A DNA stretch of 64,000 bases, taken from Dehalococcoidia bacterium (GTDB lineage: Bacteria > Chloroflexota > Dehalococcoidia > SZUA-161). The DNA is taken from positions 1 through 64,000 of the forward strand of contig JACWAE010000016.1 of NCBI GenBank assembly GCA_014874385.1, read 5' to 3'. The number at the start of each line of letters is the position of its first letter. Position 1 is the first letter of the stretch. The notes beneath the pieces are model-generated. The model was not told the origin of the DNA and did not search any database. It saw only the letters and a list, made by a program, of their open reading frames with translations. A program made the position numbers and the translations under genes. This document shows, piece by piece, positions 51,540 through 59,367 of the stretch.

Positions 51540-52424
51540 CTATTCTCTGCGTGACACAGTTGCCTGAACAATTCCTCCCAGGTTCGTCACATGCCTGTTC
51601 GCGTTAACCCCTTTGAAGTATGTCTTCTTTAGCGATTCCAGGCTGATACTTTTCATTTGATAAAAACCTCTCCGGGAAAGGAACTCCCCGACAGCGTCTT
51701 CTTTCAAGGCAAACTTGGGAGGCTCACCTCTGCGCTCATAAGCTTGCCGCCATTTCTTCGCATCGCTACTCTCAGAAGCTGCATCCAGAGCTGACTGAAA
51801 TGCGTAGTCGAAAATGATAGAGCTACCTTTACCCGAATTCTCAGCCACGAAAGCCAGGGTCTCATCCACAGCCTCCGGGTCGATGTACACAGTTACACCT
51901 TCCCAGATAAAAAGGGTCTTCTTACCCTTGTCATATCCGCTTTCCAGAAGACCTTCCCCGAGCTTCCTCTCGTCTAGGTCCAGGCCGACATAGGTCACAT
52001 GGCTCGGCAGAGAACCAAATATCTTTTTGACCTTTTGTATTTTGACCCTCTGTGTGTTGGGATGGTCTACTTCGAAGACCCTTACCTTTGCCTTAAGTTC
52101 ATCAATCCGGTAGGCCCTGGAATCATAACCGGCACCCAGGATAACCAACTGCTCTATGCCATCGTCAATACACTGCTTCAAATAATCATCGATATATCTG
52201 GTTCGAGCCACCAGACTGTCGGCAGCGCCGGGTAATATCCGTTCAGCGTACCACAGCGCAATCCTGGTAAGTAATCTGCACCGGACTACAATACCGAATC
52301 TAAGGCCGAGAAAACGCCTTGCGAACTGGTCTTCACAGACTCGTTCGTCCTTTGGTCTCAGCAATTCTGCAGCCCTTAAGGCAGCGTTCCCTTCCGCAGT
52401 AGCACTTGGTTTACCCTTTTTCAT
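51540..52424 (-). CDS. SAM-dependent methyltransferase (leucine carboxyl methyltransferase-like)
   Basis: A 294-residue protein of the LCM/PPM-like family of putative methyltransferases. Visible are TRYIDDYLKQCIDDGIEQLVILGAGYDSRAYR (SAM loop), VFEVDHPNTQRVK and FIWEGVTVYIDPEAVDETL. Members methylate carboxylates or natural products; the target here is unknown. The ATG at 52424 is favoured over 52454 because family similarity begins near GNAALRAAEL. It is divergent from the phosphonate cluster. Confidence 0.82.
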   Translation of the reverse strand: MKKGKPSATAEGNAALRAAELLRPKDERVCEDQFARRFLGLRFGIVVRCRLLTRIALWYAERILPGAADSLVARTRYIDDYLKQCIDDGIEQLVILGAGYDSRAYRIDELKAKVRVFEVDHPNTQRVKIQKVKKIFGSLPSHVTYVGLDLDERKLGEGLLESGYDKGKKTLFIWEGVTVYIDPEAVDETLAFVAENSGKGSSIIFDYAFQSALDAASESSDAKKWRQAYERRGEPPKFALKEDAVGEFLSRRGFYQMKSISLESLKKTYFKGVNANRHVTNLGGIVQATVSRRE

Positions 52425-52599
52425 ATTACCATCCGTTTCTAGGTCGCTTTCCACCTAGCATACGTTAGCCGTTCAGCTTGACAATATGTAAACATTGCCA
52501 CTATACTCGTGTAAATCACCTGATATCAATTCAATAGTTTTTTCCTGTGCCAGGTATTATATCATGTTACTATAAACACTGACTCTTGACGGCTGACTG

Positions 52600-53151
52600 A
52601 TGCAAGGAATAAGTACTGCCAAGAAAATAAGAAAGGGACTCAGTAAAGCTGTGAGATTGGCAGACGTTCTCACTGGTTCCAGAATCGTTGCAGCTCCTAT
52701 AATTGTATGGCTTATATTCTCGAATGAGACGTATGCTGCTTATTACCTCTTTGCCGCCGCTGCCATAACCGACCTGCTTGATGGGTATGCTGCCAGGTGG
52801 AGCAAAAAGACCACCACATACGGAGCAACCTTTGACGGGCTGGCCGATCTCGTTCTCGTTTACACAACAATAGTTGCCCTCGCTATCAAGATGGATGCAT
52901 ACTGGCTCCTTGCTGCGGGGTTGATAACAATAGCTTTGATAATACCCGTAATGGGCCTTATCTCAAAAAAGGAAGGGAAGTTTATTTTACTGCACCTGGA
53001 TACAAACATCCTTGCTGCTTTTATCTATCCCACGGTCATGGTATACATAATCGGCTGGCGTTATGCAGAGATTCTTCTTCTTGTTGCGTTCCTGGTCATC
53101 CTAGTATATGCAATTAGATATGTGCGCCATTTACGAACCGCCTACAAGTAG
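52600..53151 (+). CDS. CDP-alcohol phosphatidyltransferase-family enzyme
   Basis: A 183-residue integral membrane enzyme with about five hydrophobic helices. The catalytic signature DGYAARWSKKTTTYGATFDGLAD matches D-G-x2-A-R-x8-G-x3-D-x3-D, the metal-binding motif of the family. These enzymes exchange CMP on a CDP-activated head group for a lipid or polyol hydroxyl. It directly precedes the PEP mutase gene (28 bases), so a CMP-activated phosphonate is the likely donor, giving a phosphonolipid. The alternative is an ordinary phospholipid synthase recruited nearby. Confidence 0.88.
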   Translation: MQGISTAKKIRKGLSKAVRLADVLTGSRIVAAPIIVWLIFSNETYAAYYLFAAAAITDLLDGYAARWSKKTTTYGATFDGLADLVLVYTTIVALAIKMDAYWLLAAGLITIALIIPVMGLISKKEGKFILLHLDTNILAAFIYPTVMVYIIGWRYAEILLLVAFLVILVYAIRYVRHLRTAYK

Positions 53152-53178
53152 ACGAAGCCATGCAGCGCCGAGGATGAA

Positions 53179-54840
53179 ATGAACAAGGCAAAGAGACTTA
53201 GAGAGCTATTCAGCCGGGAAGGCGTAATAAAGATAGTAGGCGCCCATGATGGTCTGACAGCTAAATTGGTGGAGCATCATGATTTCGATGGTGTCTGGGC
53301 CAGTGGATTTGAAGTATCAGCTTCGCACGCTGTCCCAGATGCTAACATATTAACTATGACCCAGTACCTGGAAGCAGCTTCCATCATGAATGAAGCCGTG
53401 TCCATCCCGGTCGTTGCAGATTGCGACACAGGCTATGGAAATTCAAATAACGTGGCACACTTAGTTAAGAAATATGAGGCTGCCGGCATCGCCGCTGTCA
53501 CGTTAGAAGACAAAAAGTTCCCCAAGGTCAATAGCTACATACCGGGACGTCAGGAACTAGCCTCAACAGCCGAATTCGTAGGCAAAATATTGGCGGCCAA
53601 GAACGCACAGCAGTCAGATGCCTTCATGGTTATTGCTAGACTTGAAGCGCTGATTGCCGGATGGGGTCAGGAGGAAGCATTACGGCGAGCCCACGCCTAT
53701 GTAGAAGCCGGGGCAGATGCGATCCTCATTCACTCAAAGCAAACCACCCCAATTGAGGTCGTACAATTTGCGCAGGCATGGGATTTCTCGGCACCCTTGG
53801 TCATAATTCCTACATCCTATCCCATGATTACCTTGGACGAGGTGAACCGCCTGGGCATAAAGATGGTCATCTATGCTAATCAAGGGATCAGGGCCTCCAT
53901 AAAGGCCATAAACAAAGTGCTCGCCAAAATCAAAGCAGAAGGATTACATGCTGTAAACGATGACATCGTCCCGATGAGCGAGGTCTTCAAACTCCAGGGC
54001 ATGCCCGAAATGAAGGAGCATGAGAAAATCTTCCTGACGTCGGAGGAAGAACCTGTCCAGGTAGTTATCCTGGCGGCAGGCGCACCGCGTAACCAGGAAT
54101 CGCTTGAGCCACTGCTCCGCGATATCCCTCTCGCCTGTCTGGATATTAATGGAAAGCCACTCCTGCAGAGAAATGTTGAAACCCTGAACAAGTGCAAGCT
54201 GTACAGAACTTCGGTGGTTAGAGGGTATAAGAAGGAACTCCTAAACATTGAAGGAGTAGACTACATTGATAATCCAAAGTACCAGTCAGAGCACGTACTG
54301 AGTTCCATTATGTGTGCCGAGAGCGTTTTGCGGGGCAAGACTATCATCCTATATGCGGACATACTGTTCGATGGTTCACTTATTGACCGCTTAAAATCGC
54401 TGGAGGCCGATTTCGTGGTTGTTGTAGATAATTCCTTCAGCAAATCGCTTCAGAGAAACAAGAAGCTCGAACTGGTTGCGACGAAAGAGGCTCTACCACG
54501 CGGAGATCGAGTTTTGACCTACGACCGCTTATATAATGTCGAGCGGATGGGCTGCCAATTACCTGACGAAAGAACGTGCGCGGAATTCATCGGCGTAGCC
54601 ATGTTTTCTAAGAAGGGCATCGAGATTTTTAAGCGGGAATATCATAAGGCATATGCCGAGTATCGAGACAAGCCACTAGGAGAGGCGCCAAACGTTCTGC
54701 GGGCTACTTTGGTGGATTTCCTGCAGTATCTGATAGAGCTGGGCTACAATGTCAAGGCACTCCAGGTGAACTCGGGATGGATGGAAATCCACACTTTTGA
54801 GAACTACAAATACGCTTGTTCCATGGTCTCGGCTATTTAA
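53179..54840 (+). CDS. Phosphoenolpyruvate mutase fused to a nucleotidyltransferase-like domain
   Basis: A 553-residue fusion. Residues 1-~285 are PepM, forming the C-P bond by converting PEP to phosphonopyruvate: GAHDGLTAKLVE, VVADCDTGYGN and the diagnostic EDKKFPKVNS (110-119), matching EDKx5NS. Residues ~292-553 are a sugar-phosphate/choline-phosphate nucleotidyltransferase-like domain, but its nucleotide loop is odd (VILAAGAPRNQESLEPLL instead of LAAGxGxRL). Streptomyces Fom1 has a comparable fusion (reverse order) that cytidylylates hydroxyethylphosphonate. GAGGATGAA precedes the ATG. The fused domain may have altered activity, since a canonical nucleotidyltransferase is encoded at 56975. 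Confidence 0.92.
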   Translation: MNKAKRLRELFSREGVIKIVGAHDGLTAKLVEHHDFDGVWASGFEVSASHAVPDANILTMTQYLEAASIMNEAVSIPVVADCDTGYGNSNNVAHLVKKYEAAGIAAVTLEDKKFPKVNSYIPGRQELASTAEFVGKILAAKNAQQSDAFMVIARLEALIAGWGQEEALRRAHAYVEAGADAILIHSKQTTPIEVVQFAQAWDFSAPLVIIPTSYPMITLDEVNRLGIKMVIYANQGIRASIKAINKVLAKIKAEGLHAVNDDIVPMSEVFKLQGMPEMKEHEKIFLTSEEEPVQVVILAAGAPRNQESLEPLLRDIPLACLDINGKPLLQRNVETLNKCKLYRTSVVRGYKKELLNIEGVDYIDNPKYQSEHVLSSIMCAESVLRGKTIILYADILFDGSLIDRLKSLEADFVVVVDNSFSKSLQRNKKLELVATKEALPRGDRVLTYDRLYNVERMGCQLPDERTCAEFIGVAMFSKKGIEIFKREYHKAYAEYRDKPLGEAPNVLRATLVDFLQYLIELGYNVKALQVNSGWMEIHTFENYKYACSMVSAI

Positions 54841-54881
54841 CCTCCTCTGTATCAGGCTTGTTCGGAGCATGAAGGAGTTAT

Positions 54882-55373
54882 ATGGTCAGCACCAGGCAAT
54901 TCTGCGATGTACTGAAAAAATACGGGTTTAACTTTTGCACCGGGGTTCCCTGCACCATCTTGAAAGACATCATTTTATGCCTTTCGTCTGATGCAGACCT
55001 GCCGTATATACCGGCGACCAGAGAGGATGAAGCTATGGGAATAGCCACAGGAGCCTGCCTGGCAGGAAAACAGCCCGTGGTCATGATGCAAAACTCGGGG
55101 TTGGGTAGCTCCATCAACCCGCTGGCCTCGTTGGATATTCTATATAGGATTCCCATGCTGCTATTGATCAGTTGGAGAGGCTACCAGGGAAAAGACGCTC
55201 CGGAGCACCTCATAATGGGCGAGGCTATGTTGAAGCTGCTCGACGCCCTTGGTGTTCCATATCAGGTAATATCCGAAGATAATCCCGAGGCGGCAATCTC
55301 AGCTTCAGTTACGGCGATGAGAGCAAGAGGAATACCTGCTGCTGCAATCCTCAGAAGCGGTATCGTGCAATGA
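54882..55373 (+). CDS. Phosphonopyruvate decarboxylase, PYR-domain subunit
   Basis: A 163-residue subunit equal to the N-terminal half of Ppd. It shows FCTGVPCTILKDII, IPATREDEAMGIATGACLAG (with the conserved Glu that activates thiamine diphosphate), MMQNSGLGSSINPLASL and WRGYQGKDAPEH. Ppd decarboxylates phosphonopyruvate to phosphonoacetaldehyde, pulling the unfavourable PepM reaction. Single-chain Ppd has ~380 residues; here it is split in two genes overlapping by 4 bases. Confidence 0.9.
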   Translation: MVSTRQFCDVLKKYGFNFCTGVPCTILKDIILCLSSDADLPYIPATREDEAMGIATGACLAGKQPVVMMQNSGLGSSINPLASLDILYRIPMLLLISWRGYQGKDAPEHLIMGEAMLKLLDALGVPYQVISEDNPEAAISASVTAMRARGIPAAAILRSGIVQ

Positions 55374-55939
55374 AAAGATACGACGCTATACGTGCCATAG
55401 TCCAGGCACTGGACGGTAACGAACTGCTTATCTCCTCTAATGGTATGATCAGCCGGGAGCTAATCACAGTCAGAGACGCTCCTCAGAACTTCTACATGAT
55501 AGGCTCAATGGGGCTTGCATCTTCGATAGGCTTAGGGCTGGCAATCTCGCTATCGAAAGCACAAATCGTGGTCATAGAGGGAGACGGTAACGTCCTTATG
55601 AACATGGGCTCTATAGCGACCATAGGACATTCCGCTCCTAGAAACCTGATCCAGGTTGTTCTCGACAATGAGTGTCATGATTCAACCGGCGGCCAGCCAA
55701 CTGTCTCGAGCACCATGAGATTGGAGGAGGTAGCACGAGCCTCAGGGTATCGTGTGGCTGCCAGAGTGGCAAACGAGGCCGAGCTAGGAAAGGTCGTCAG
55801 ACAGTCGTTAAGGGAGGGGCCTGCTTTCATTCTGGTCAAGGTTGAGAAGGGCAGTGTCAAAGGGATAGCGAGGGTTTCACATTCCCCGGAACAGATTAGG
55901 AGTCGGTTTCAACAGGCAGTCCGAATGTTTTCTGGTTAG
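55370..55939 (+). CDS. Phosphonopyruvate decarboxylase, TPP-binding subunit
   Basis: A 189-residue C-terminal half of Ppd with the thiamine-diphosphate motif GDGNVLMNMGSIATIG...VLDNECHDSTGGQPT and SNGMISRELITVRD near the start. Its ATG overlaps the stop of the first subunit (ATGA). Sulfopyruvate decarboxylase (ComDE) is built from similar split subunits, but the PepM gene upstream decides for phosphonopyruvate. Confidence 0.9.
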   Translation: MKRYDAIRAIVQALDGNELLISSNGMISRELITVRDAPQNFYMIGSMGLASSIGLGLAISLSKAQIVVIEGDGNVLMNMGSIATIGHSAPRNLIQVVLDNECHDSTGGQPTVSSTMRLEEVARASGYRVAARVANEAELGKVVRQSLREGPAFILVKVEKGSVKGIARVSHSPEQIRSRFQQAVRMFSG

Positions 55940-55967
55940 CTTGAGTAGGACAAGAATCTGGAGTTTC

Positions 55968-56975
55968 ATGAGTTTCAGCTTCATATTGCCTCAGAAAATT
56001 ATCTTCGGCAGGGGCTCTATTGAGTCAATCGGCGAAGAGGCGAAAAGGCTGGGCGGCAGGAGAGTATTCATTGTTACCAGCCCGGGGATGGTACAGCGCC
56101 CGCACTTAAAACAGGCCGCCGATTCGCTCAAGAAGCACAAAATGCGGTTTGATGTCTTCTCTGAAGTAACACCTGAGCCCCCGATTGAAGACGTCTACCG
56201 TTGTTTTGCGGTCGCCCGAAAGAAAGGGTCTGACCTGCTGGTCGGTCTGGGCGGAGGCAGCGTTATGGATGTGGCCAAGAAAGCAGCGGCTGACTTATCG
56301 TTGCCCAGGATAATGGTACCTACCACCGCCGGGACAGGGAGCGAGGTTACTCACGAGTCTGTGCTGAAGGTCGACGGCAAGAAGAAGGCTTTCGTAGAGG
56401 CTGGCCTGACCGCTGATGTAGCGATCGTTGACCCGAATTTGTGCCAGACTATGTCAAAGCGGCTGGCCACCAGCTCGGCGATGGATGCGCTGGCGCACGC
56501 CGTTGAGTGTCACGAGTCTAGGAAGAGTAACCCCATAGCCAGGACTCTGGCTCTGGAGGCCTACAATCTCGTGAAAGACAACCTGATGCAGGCGCTGAAG
56601 GGCGATACTCAGGCGATGGTCAACTTGTCTCTGGGGAGCCTGATAGCTGGCATGGCCTTCGGCAACTCGGGGACTACACTGGGGCACGCCCTTTCGTATC
56701 CCCTTTCAAATCGAGGAATGCCACACGGCGAGGCTGTCGCTGTTACTTTGCCCTATGCTCTCGATTTCAATGGCTCCGACCCGGCCTTCGCCAGAAAGCT
56801 GCAAAAGCTGGCGCGAACCATAGAGTTCCGATGGAACCCGGGGTGGGATGCCCGCGAGATGGCTACGGAGGTTATGCAGGATGAGAGGCATCTGGGAAAC
56901 AATCCCGTTGAGGTAACCTTCGAAGATGTCCTCGCCATATTCGAGAAAATGAAGAACGAGTTTCACAAGCGGTAA
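55968..56975 (+). CDS. Iron-containing alcohol dehydrogenase (phosphonoacetaldehyde reductase candidate)
   Basis: A 335-residue group III alcohol dehydrogenase: LPQKIIFGRGSIESIG, GLGGGSVMDVAKK (NAD loop), MVPTTAGTGSEVT, and metal ligands in AMDALAHAVECHESR and RGMPHGEAVAV. Relatives FomC/PhpC reduce phosphonoacetaldehyde to 2-hydroxyethylphosphonate in phosphonate pathways. The ATG at 55968 has GGAG four bases before it; the frame upstream to 55941 is not needed. No 2-aminoethylphosphonate transaminase gene is present, so the alcohol is the probable product. Confidence 0.9.
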   Translation: MSFSFILPQKIIFGRGSIESIGEEAKRLGGRRVFIVTSPGMVQRPHLKQAADSLKKHKMRFDVFSEVTPEPPIEDVYRCFAVARKKGSDLLVGLGGGSVMDVAKKAAADLSLPRIMVPTTAGTGSEVTHESVLKVDGKKKAFVEAGLTADVAIVDPNLCQTMSKRLATSSAMDALAHAVECHESRKSNPIARTLALEAYNLVKDNLMQALKGDTQAMVNLSLGSLIAGMAFGNSGTTLGHALSYPLSNRGMPHGEAVAVTLPYALDFNGSDPAFARKLQKLARTIEFRWNPGWDAREMATEVMQDERHLGNNPVEVTFEDVLAIFEKMKNEFHKR

Positions 56976-57706
56976 TGAAAGCCATAATACTCGCATCCGG
57001 TGTAGGTAGAAGGCTTCGTCCTTTGACCGACCAATATCCGAAATCTTTGCTGAGAGTCGGCGGCACAACTATCATAGACTACCAGTTAGAAGCCCTGGCA
57101 GAGCATGGAATTCGCGACATAGTGATAACCACTGGTCATCTCGGCAAGAAGCTTGAAGAGCACGTTCGAGAGACCAGTGCTGCCTCGATTCAGTTTGTTC
57201 ACAATCCGGAATATCAGCGCACGAACTATATCTACAGCCTCTGGCTGACCAAAGGCCTGCTTGATGACGATATCATCTTGTTGCATGGTGACCTTTTATT
57301 CGACAGCGTCCTTATCAAGAAACTGCTAGATGTGGGAGGGAATCGAGTTCTGGTAAACCGGCATATGCTCTCGCCTGAAAAGGACTTTAAAGCTCTAATC
57401 AAACGCGGAAGGGTGGTACGAATCGGTGTCAATCTATCCGGCCCGGGAACTTTCTTCTGCGCCCCGTTGTACATGTTCTCAAAAGCTGATTTCCCGCTCT
57501 GGCTCGATAAGATAGAGGATTTCGTAAGGCAAGGCAAGGTGGACTGCTATGCTGAGGATGCCTTCAACGAGATATCCGATAGCCTGTCACTCCGCCCCCT
57601 GTACTTCAAGGAATTCTGCATTGAGATTGACACCAAGGCCGACTTGGAGAGAGCGAGGAGGTACTTCCAGATAGAAAGCAGGCGGGCAAATGTCGAACGC
57701 AACTAA
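56975..57706 (+). CDS. Cytidylyltransferase-type nucleotidyltransferase
   Basis: A 243-residue nucleotidyltransferase with the canonical loop ILASGVGRRLRPLTDQYPKSLLRVGG, VHNPEYQRTNYIYSLWLTKG and the metal-binding LLHGDLLFDSVLI. It resembles enzymes that activate phosphocholine or 2-aminoethylphosphonate with CTP (LicC/PntC-like). It overlaps the dehydrogenase stop by one base (TAATG). The expected role is forming CMP-hydroxyethylphosphonate for the CDP-alcohol-type transferase at the head of the cluster. Confidence 0.88.
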   Translation: MKAIILASGVGRRLRPLTDQYPKSLLRVGGTTIIDYQLEALAEHGIRDIVITTGHLGKKLEEHVRETSAASIQFVHNPEYQRTNYIYSLWLTKGLLDDDIILLHGDLLFDSVLIKKLLDVGGNRVLVNRHMLSPEKDFKALIKRGRVVRIGVNLSGPGTFFCAPLYMFSKADFPLWLDKIEDFVRQGKVDCYAEDAFNEISDSLSLRPLYFKEFCIEIDTKADLERARRYFQIESRRANVERN

Positions 57707-58134
57707 ACGGATAGAGGTCGAGAGGCTGGATTGCTTCTGGCAGCGTAGTCAATGTTAGGCCGGAGTGTCGTCCTTCTGGCTGCTCTTGCCTTTTTGAGAA
57801 CGGCTCCTCAGAAAGGTCTTGGCTGTTCTCCAGAAAACTGGCATCGCGAAACACAATCCAACAAATGCTGCTGCGATGAGATGAAGGCTGGAACTGCCGC
57901 TTTCGTGATTGGAGCTGTCAGCCGCCAGAGCGAGGGCTGGATGAAAGAGGATGAAGACGACCGATACCGATGTCAATAGCATGAAACGTTTCATTCCGGT
58001 TCCTTACGCTGAGGCAGTGTCAATTCCATATAGATTTACAATGGACTGTGTGGATTGTACCATACAGCCTTCAGACTTGTCGAGTTGCAGACATCACGAA
58101 CATACTACTCAATCAAGATTTGGAGAGTGCGCCT
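57707..58134. other. Gap between the nucleotidyltransferase and beta-helix genes
   Basis: About 430 bases; the only candidate gene is the small minus-strand membrane protein at 57755-57994. No strong terminator or promoter pair was recognised, so whether the beta-helix gene belongs to the phosphonate operon is open. Confidence 0.4.
57755..57994 (-). CDS. Small exported membrane protein
   Basis: A 79-residue protein with a classic signal peptide (MKRFMLLTSVSVVFILFHPALALAA, in two blocks) ending in AxA, a short polar stretch, a second hydrophobic helix (LHLIAAAFVGLCFAMPVFW) and a basic, positive-inside tail. AAGGA precedes the ATG. The membrane layout argues for a real gene, although it is antisense to the general direction of the cluster. 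Family unknown. Confidence 0.5.
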   Translation of the reverse strand: MKRFMLLTSVSVVFILFHPALALAADSSNHESGSSSLHLIAAAFVGLCFAMPVFWRTAKTFLRSRSQKGKSSQKDDTPA

Positions 58135-59367
58135 ATGAAAGCATATATCGTGCAAAGCAATAAGAAGATTGAGCCTTTCGGTGACCCCCCTCGCGATTGC
58201 CTTATCGCTAACCGTAAGCTGAGTGAGATTCAGGAACAAGTGCTGCAAAGACTTGGCATAGAACTCAAAATAATACCGGATACTGCTCAGATAGAAGACC
58301 CGGATGAACATATTGTCTTAGCGGACAACCTATTCTTCACCCGAGAGTTAATGAAAGAGTTCATCTATAGGTCACGAATGCTGAAAAGTTGCACCACATG
58401 TGCCCTCAAACCAGGACTTGTTACCCTCCATAGCATGGTTGCCACCCAAGATGTGAAGATACACGCCGATAGGGTTGAATATGCTCTCCGTTATATGCCT
58501 GCCCAAAAACTGCGCGGAGAGCCTGTACCTGTAGTGATCGACCCAGAGCAGTTCTCCCAGGTCGTTCCCATGCCCGAGCATATACGTGGCTCCCAACCGT
58601 ATCGCATGCCCCTGACTGACACATTGCTGATCCAGGTAGACCACTGGACTAACCTGTGGGCGGCCAATATAGCTACCCAGCTGGCTGAAGTAGCCAGACT
58701 TATGAAGTCTCCTAAACTGAAGCTCTTGGGGTTAGCGCTGAGAGCACGCTCCCTGAATAAATGGAGAGTCCTTCATCAAGTTAATAAGATTGGTAAGAAT
58801 TGCGATATTCATCCCACAGCCTATATAGAGGGCAGCACCATCGGAGATAATGTGCTTATTGGCGCCGGCTCTGTCGTCAGGCTTTCCGTTATCGGAGACG
58901 GTTCCGCCCTCGGCAGCAACGTGACTATAGAATCTTCTATACTCGGGGAGGAATGCACCATAAATTCAGGGTGTACCGTTTTCTTCTCTGTGCTGTATCC
59001 TCGTGCCGTATCCTCGTCCAGACTGCTCTTAACGAGCACGTGCGGCAGGGATACATTTATCTCAGATTTAGCCGGCCTGGCTGACTTTCGCTTTGATGGG
59101 AAACGAATAGAAGTCATGAAAAACGGCGTCCCTGTAAACACAGGCGTTATCAACTTGGGTGCGTGCCTTGGGCACGGTGTATACCTGGGTGGCGGCTGCG
59201 GGGTTGCCCCAGCGACAGCTATCCCCAATGGATTACGAATTTTACCAAAGAAACCATTGATTGGCGAAGTCAGTCCAGACGGGACAATTCCCGGACATCG
59301 CGTAATTAACACACAACATATTTCTCGAAGCCCTGACGCTTCCCCAACCGGTAACGACAGTCCTTGA
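58135..59367 (+). CDS. Left-handed beta-helix (hexapeptide repeat) protein
   Basis: A 410-residue protein. The middle (about 220-330) shows hexapeptide repeats (CDIHPTAYIEGSTIGDNVLIGAGSVV; VIGDGSALGSNVTIESSILGEECTI), as in acyltransferases and GlmU-like enzymes. The N-terminal ~210 residues are unassigned, with paired cysteines in KSCTTCAL, and the C-terminal part has LGACLGHGVYLGGGCGVAPAT. The ATG at 58135 has GGAG nine bases upstream; the earlier ATG at 58048 adds unconserved residues. It may modify the phosphonate or its carrier, but it is 430 bases from the cluster, so this is only a guess from position. Confidence 0.72.
   Translation: MKAYIVQSNKKIEPFGDPPRDCLIANRKLSEIQEQVLQRLGIELKIIPDTAQIEDPDEHIVLADNLFFTRELMKEFIYRSRMLKSCTTCALKPGLVTLHSMVATQDVKIHADRVEYALRYMPAQKLRGEPVPVVIDPEQFSQVVPMPEHIRGSQPYRMPLTDTLLIQVDHWTNLWAANIATQLAEVARLMKSPKLKLLGLALRARSLNKWRVLHQVNKIGKNCDIHPTAYIEGSTIGDNVLIGAGSVVRLSVIGDGSALGSNVTIESSILGEECTINSGCTVFFSVLYPRAVSSSRLLLTSTCGRDTFISDLAGLADFRFDGKRIEVMKNGVPVNTGVINLGACLGHGVYLGGGCGVAPATAIPNGLRILPKKPLIGEVSPDGTIPGHRVINTQHISRSPDASPTGNDSP

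Follow-up and report, generated by a model that had tools for sequence, protein, structure and literature searches.

A cluster of six genes in the genome of a Dehalococcoidia bacterium raises the question of which phosphonate it would make and to what acceptor that product would go. The cluster lies in the window, the stretch of 64,000 nucleotides analysed here, which corresponds to contig C84 of a 2.8-Mb assembly (G000; 95% complete, 6.4% contaminated). The host is a member of the Chloroflexota, as are its kin. As the original prediction had it, the six genes run head to tail on the plus strand between positions 52600 and 57706, and all named genes give significant Pfam or NCBIfam matches (Table 1), with active-site motifs intact. 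Because the genes are tightly spaced (27 bp, 41 bp, a 4-bp overlap, 1 bp and a 1-bp overlap, in gene order), they look like a single operon. Upstream of them lies a promoter-like match (52478-52507), of a kind found about as often as chance would give.

Table 1. Genes and domains of the phosphonate cluster and its neighbours in the window
Feature	Position	Strand	Match
LCM/TIGR00027-type methyltransferase, divergent from the 52600 transferase	51540..52454	-	PF04072, E 4.2e-51
CDP-alcohol phosphatidyltransferase (CDP-OH_P_transf)	52600..53151	+	PF01066, E 1.4e-19
PepM-NTP fusion	53179-54840	+	PF13714 and C-terminal NTP_transf_3
PEP mutase domain, residues 1-289 of the fusion	53179..54045	+	PF13714, E 1.9e-56
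NTP_transf_3 domain, C-terminal in the PepM fusion	54046..54840	+	PF12804, E 2.5e-7
Phosphonopyruvate decarboxylase (Ppd) alpha subunit, N-terminal TPP domain	54882..55373	+	TIGR03297, E 3.6e-42, model 1-155
Phosphonopyruvate decarboxylase (Ppd) beta subunit, C-terminal TPP domain	55370..55939	+	TIGR03297, E 5.6e-59, model 171-358
Iron-containing alcohol dehydrogenase (Fe-ADH), predicted phosphonoacetaldehyde reductase	55941..56975	+	PF00465, E 1.1e-43
LicC/PntC-type cytidylyltransferase, predicted CTP:HEP	56975..57706	+	NTP_transferase, E 2.5e-17
Left-handed beta-helix (hexapeptide) protein	58048..59367	+	PF00132

We put at about 0.62 the probability that this is a cassette for 2-hydroxyethylphosphonate (HEP) and CMP-HEP, with all reactions and the product read from the genes. 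PepM would convert PEP to phosphonopyruvate, the two-subunit Ppd would decarboxylate this to phosphonoacetaldehyde, and the Fe-ADH would reduce the aldehyde to HEP. The enzyme encoded at 56975, a relative of LicC and PntC with a histidine at position 104, would then join HEP and CTP to give CMP-HEP, the presumed donor for a surface acceptor in decoration of the cell envelope. Neither neighbour appears to belong to this pathway. The LCM methyltransferase adjoins the 52600 transferase in the host and in the related genomes G001, G003 and G008 (loci L033, L134 and L133) and has no linkage to pepM. The beta-helix gene is separated from the cassette by a gap of 341 bp. None of 80 pepM loci encodes a homologue of its product, and the homologues found in G002, G004 and G008 are in genomes without a pepM match over the cut-off; we therefore rejected it as a pathway member and place it probably outside the cassette.

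The PEP mutase domain carries the motif EDKxxxxxNS (EDKKFPKVNS at residue 110), and its best PDB match is 5unc (349 bits). It scores below the cut-off of the NCBIfam equivalog TIGR02320 (300.5 vs 319.55 bits), which is still the top-scoring equivalog listed. Of the two nucleotidyltransferase domains that had been predicted, the standalone one alone retains the GxGxR...PK signature (GVGRR, PKSL); the domain fused to PepM lacks it. More widely, GxGxR or GxGxxR occurs in none of 73 PepM-fused NTP domains, as against 46 of 60 standalone ones. On this pattern the fused domain is probably non-catalytic, a remnant or a structural part, and we rejected it as the HEP cytidylyltransferase. Since the catalytic signature is missing from the fused domain in every case examined, the reading of earlier counts is affected: PepM-NTP fusions have been taken in the literature as evidence for nucleotidyl activation.

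The Ppd model TIGR03297 is split over two genes, each covering one half. Glu48 of the TPP site is present in the alpha subunit and the GDG...N TPP motif in the beta subunit. Both halves score below the equivalog cut-off of a model that spans the two, and sulfopyruvate decarboxylase scores lie near those of phosphonopyruvate decarboxylase (141.2 vs 144.7 and 184.2 vs 200 bits). The Fe-ADH has its catalytic and metal-site motifs (DALAH, GHALSYP and PHGEA); its best NCBIfam scores, to ErcA and lactaldehyde reductase, are all far under cut-off. Its role as a phosphonoacetaldehyde reductase is thus a prediction, as specificity is not readable from the sequence.

That this set of enzymes leads to HEP rather than to 2-aminoethylphosphonate (AEP) is well supported by genome content. 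No AEP transaminase is encoded in the cluster, as originally noted, and a PhnW search of the whole host genome gave no match above cut-off (best 225.6 vs 360.8 bits), for which reason AEP was rejected as the product. PhnW was likewise above cut-off in none of six genomes with Fe-ADH clusters (G447-G452), and both of the genomes with AEP transaminase (AEPT) clusters tested alongside exceeded it (461.6 and 384 bits). The same gene set, again without a transaminase, occurs in ANME-1 (L054), in the archaeon UBA543 (L078) and in Peribacteria. A separate observation concerns a 1164-residue protein of a Woesearchaeota contig (L068, 1145-4639), which apparently combines Fe-ADH-like, cytidylyltransferase-like, PntC-like and AEP transaminase parts.

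The cytidylyltransferase provides a second line of evidence. Its PDB matches are LicC (1jyk, E 5.6e-18) and PntC (6pd1, E 4e-15), its predicted structure (pLDDT 93) finds LicC and PntC as best Foldseek matches, and, in keeping with the ppm linkage of PntC, it shares the apparent operon with pepM. In the PntC structure Glu104 contacts the amine of AEP, and the LicC equivalent is Asp105 (PMC6697681). The window enzyme has His104 at this position and so lacks the amine-contacting acid of the AEP enzymes. When the standalone cytidylyltransferases of pepM loci are aligned, with LicC one column off and its Asp-Ala-Asp corresponding by motif, the Glu104 column is acidic (Asp or Glu) in all 15 enzymes of AEPT clusters and in none of the nine from Fe-ADH clusters, which have six His and three Tyr. 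The contrast (Fisher 7.6e-7) largely reduces to a single deep division of the tree, so that the test overstates independence, and Tyr is also found in this column in rSAM-type clusters. The tree sets an acid-bearing side, with the characterised PntC, against a His/Tyr side; a long and uncertain branch puts LicC, itself acid-bearing and only half covered, with the latter. The enzymes of the window, ANME-1 and Peribacteria form a clade (100/99). Formation of the CMP ester of HEP, as first proposed, and the predicted route from PEP through HEP to CMP-HEP as a whole are accordingly well supported by these comparisons. The data suggest an HEP-specific branch of CMP-phosphonate tailoring enzymes, definable by one residue and by the exchange of a transaminase for a dehydrogenase, that would span ANME-1 archaea, Peribacteria and a Chloroflexota bacterium. 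Marine organic phosphorus is known to include HEP esters.

Judged by its homologues, the stretch from PepM to the cytidylyltransferase is a horizontally moved cassette in this Chloroflexota genome. Its best matches come from ANME-1 and a deltaproteobacterium. Identities to the deltaproteobacterial contig (L053) are 73% for PepM, 72% for PpdA, 67% for PpdB and 62% for the Fe-ADH, and those to a 1.19-Mb ANME-1 contig (L054) are 73, 59, 55 and 52%, with 51% for the cytidylyltransferase. The Fe-ADH is also 49% identical to the dehydrogenase of the UBA543 pepM cluster (L078), and a Methanosarcinales contig (L126, 10001-12575) holds a broken PepM, 82% identical to that of the window over 217 residues, which two NTP genes adjoin. 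Between the same flanks, the sister species G001 of the same genus has a different phosphonate cassette, composed of a PepM fused to NTP, a single-gene Ppd, a radical SAM protein and an EamA transporter; its upstream flank and cassette are on two contigs, the junction being inferred from the matching flanks. The flanking genes of the two species are 83-88% identical (HBD 87, LCM 83, MPE 87, thiL 88, tsaE and tsaB 86%), whereas PepM is 50% and Ppd 37-38% identical. Since the cassette is 62-73% identical to that of a deltaproteobacterium and its PepM far more distant from that of a sister species with such similar flanks, we conclude that it was acquired by horizontal transfer. In a sample of 400 Chloroflexota genomes this type of cytidylyltransferase was found in one, the host itself; a search with the ANME-1 protein found it in one of 58 genomes in the class of the ANME-1 host. 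Transposase-like genes lie on both sides of the L053 cluster. Viral carriage was considered and rejected, the sole match on a viral contig being a distant PepM (42%).

The survey of pepM loci also brought up other arrangements. A second cassette type, with PepM-NTP, Ppd, a radical SAM/SPASM protein, an EamA transporter and mostly NTP genes as well, is found in Chloroflexota, Omnitrophota and deltaproteobacteria (L034, 6395-12156; L035, 676-7634; L063, L066, L067 and L069). At L035 (6588-7634), L033 (16752-17798) and L037 (7113-8204), NTP-transferase proteins carry an N-terminal region like a C2H2 zinc finger; they adjoin phosphonate-type NTP genes, and the zinc-finger Pfam match, tested in L035 only, is just under cut-off. 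In the deltaproteobacterial cluster (L053, 5498-7969), the cytidylyltransferase is surrounded by a HAD hydrolase and an APH-type kinase, between the transposase-like genes.

The destination of CMP-HEP turns first on the CDP-alcohol transferase at 52600. Its catalytic motif DLLDGYAARWSKKTTTYGATFDGLAD is intact and six helices are predicted; homologues begin at the residue equivalent to a GTG at 52651, which may be the true start instead of 52600. The host genome has two PF01066 genes. The other is the PI-synthase-like housekeeping gene (L036, 8444-11316), whose neighbours are genes for an inositol-phosphate synthase and a glycosyltransferase, much like a phosphatidylinositol mannoside cluster. 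In 18 genomes of the same order that were searched, each of the 17 with a match has one housekeeping-type PF01066 enzyme. The 52600 transferase is an extra copy that the host (G000) has in common with G001, G003 and G008; G386, from another family, has one that is 50% identical. Among these five genomes PepM is over the cut-off only in G000 and G001. Gene order in relatives, proposed at the outset as a check, varies. In G003 phosphonate-type NTP genes adjoin the transferase up to the contig end, in G008 (70% complete) leuS stands in place of the cassette in one unbroken stretch, and in G386 (95% complete, no pepM) DedA lies beside the transferase. The transferase is 72% identical to its G001 orthologue, as against 50% for PepM; it tracks the flanking chromosome, not the phosphonate cassette.

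In the tree the 52600 enzyme falls among PgsA-like enzymes. A 100/99 branch sets it apart from the CDP-alcohol transferases that other pepM loci encode, which were DIPPS/AIPS-like in the three cases examined. Its structure model, of moderate confidence (pLDDT 69.6), agrees: the best Foldseek matches are PgsA (7drk and 7drj, TM about 0.7), with TM 0.50 for CEPT1, so that the nearest solved fold is PgsA 7drk, with CDP-DAG bound, and not CEPT1 or DIPPS. It nevertheless scores only 41.5 bits against the PgsA model TIGR00560 (cut-off 109.1), and all five members of its clade lack two features shared by 12 of 12 PgsA-like controls: a Lys following the last catalytic Asp and an Arg-Glu pair in the fourth helix. 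We rejected a role as the housekeeping PgsA, both because these hallmark residues are missing and because the enzyme is an extra copy beside a housekeeping-type one. By these comparisons the enzyme derives from PgsA but has an altered active site, and its gene lies next to the phosphonate pathway without clearly being part of it. It is also the sole candidate final transferase seen in the locus, yet a gene of the resident chromosome. No LicD was found in the host genome, so LicD was rejected as the final transferase, nor did any dedicated acceptor enzyme come to light.

The acceptor that best withstands these results is a surface glycan, exopolysaccharide or other surface polymer, to which CMP-HEP would pass through a transferase encoded outside the window, with the 52600 gene an unrelated resident lipid gene. 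We consider this plausible, if short of probable; it is compatible with the HEP and CMP-HEP reading and competes over the acceptor only. At L054, L078 and L101, related Fe-ADH clusters are surrounded by genes for glycosyltransferases, LicD and sugars, HEP esters of polysaccharide are reported from marine dissolved organic matter (PMC9381506), and the 52600 transferase is not tied to pepM. Against a glycan stand the missing LicD and the fact that no glycosyltransferase was recognised in the cassette.

A lipid acceptor was the original prediction: with CMP-HEP as donor, the 52600 enzyme would place the HEP-phosphonyl group on the hydroxyl of a diacylglycerol-like lipid, yielding a hydroxyethylphosphonolipid. 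Such a transfer parallels the Kennedy pathway. The transferase is co-directional with PepM and 27 bp upstream of it, phosphonate-type NTP genes adjoin its G003 orthologue, and the G001 cassette probably does likewise, by way of the matching flanks across the contig break. CDP-alcohol transferases recur at pepM loci (at least 19 of 80, in a filtered gene set), and in ANME-1 (L054) and UBA543 (L078) one overlaps or abuts the cytidylyltransferase gene directly downstream of the Fe-ADH. The enzyme is an extra copy beside a single PI-type one, and the lost acceptor-site hallmarks of PgsA are consistent with a changed substrate. The PgsA-side ancestry and fold, outside the clade of pepM-locus enzymes, the shared evolution with the flanks and the occurrence without pepM in G386 and G008 all argue the other way, and we regard the model as unlikely. 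Equally doubtful is its wider form, in which a resident PgsA-derived lipid enzyme would make an HEP head group here and be paired with exchangeable cassettes, HEP in this genome and radical-SAM in the sister species. The original prediction had held that an ordinary PgsA-type enzyme with no conserved linkage to pepM would speak against it. We found that linkage is indeed not conserved and that the enzyme is not an ordinary PgsA; for the latter reason the lipid idea, though unsupported, is not refuted. As for its supposed novelty, a limited literature search found no report of an HEP lipid or of ANME phosphonate clusters, but non-AEP surface phosphonates have been proposed before (PMC12723261), so the general idea is not new.

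A pathway that ends in a small molecule, as in fosfomycin synthesis, or a cytidylyltransferase that acts on some other phosphonate, seems quite unlikely. The early steps of the fosfomycin and methylphosphonate pathways do equal the first steps of the cassette, but none of the cassette genes was recognised as encoding a Fom3-type methyltransferase, an epoxidase, a HepD/MpnS-like dioxygenase or an amide ligase. Least credible is the PgsA direction, in which CDP-diacylglycerol and the HEP hydroxyl would give phosphatidyl-hydroxyethylphosphonate: the fold and tree position fit, as does the likeness of HEP, with its free hydroxyl and phosphonate, to the glycerol 3-phosphate it would replace, but the loss of Lys and Arg-Glu across the clade argues against the same kind of acceptor and the cytidylyltransferase would have no use.

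Set beside known systems, the predicted HEP and CMP-HEP cassette would share with the early fosfomycin pathway (Fom1, Fom2 and FomC) the conversion of PEP to HEP and CMP-HEP by like reaction types. There, however, the cytidylyltransferase is a PF01467 domain at the N-terminus of Fom1, whereas in the window it is standalone and LicC-like (PF00483/PF12804), the domain fused to PepM is a C-terminal PF12804, no N-terminal PF01467 fusion is present, Ppd is split and the later fosfomycin genes are absent. The 52600 protein has the overall fold of PgsA (7drj/7drk) and its catalytic D..DG..AR...G...D...D motif, but falls below the NCBIfam cut-off and no longer has the Arg-Glu pair or the Lys that follows the last Asp. 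Phosphonolipid clusters of the Nostoc/Burkholderia type, with a CDP-alcohol phosphatidyltransferase, were predicted earlier (PMC5987646); like the window, they bring together pepM, ppd, an NTP transferase and a CDP-alcohol transferase, but they have an AEP transaminase, and in the window the transaminase is missing and the transferase is PgsA-derived. For Burkholderia, a head group with a phosphonate other than AEP has been put forward (PMC12723261). The phosphonyl tailoring (Pnt) pathways with PntC (Rice et al. 2019, PMC6697681) have in common with the cassette PepM, Ppd, a LicC-like cytidylyltransferase and a CMP-phosphonate for the surface; in the window an Fe-ADH stands in place of the AEP transaminase and His in place of Glu104, and the predicted product is CMP-HEP.
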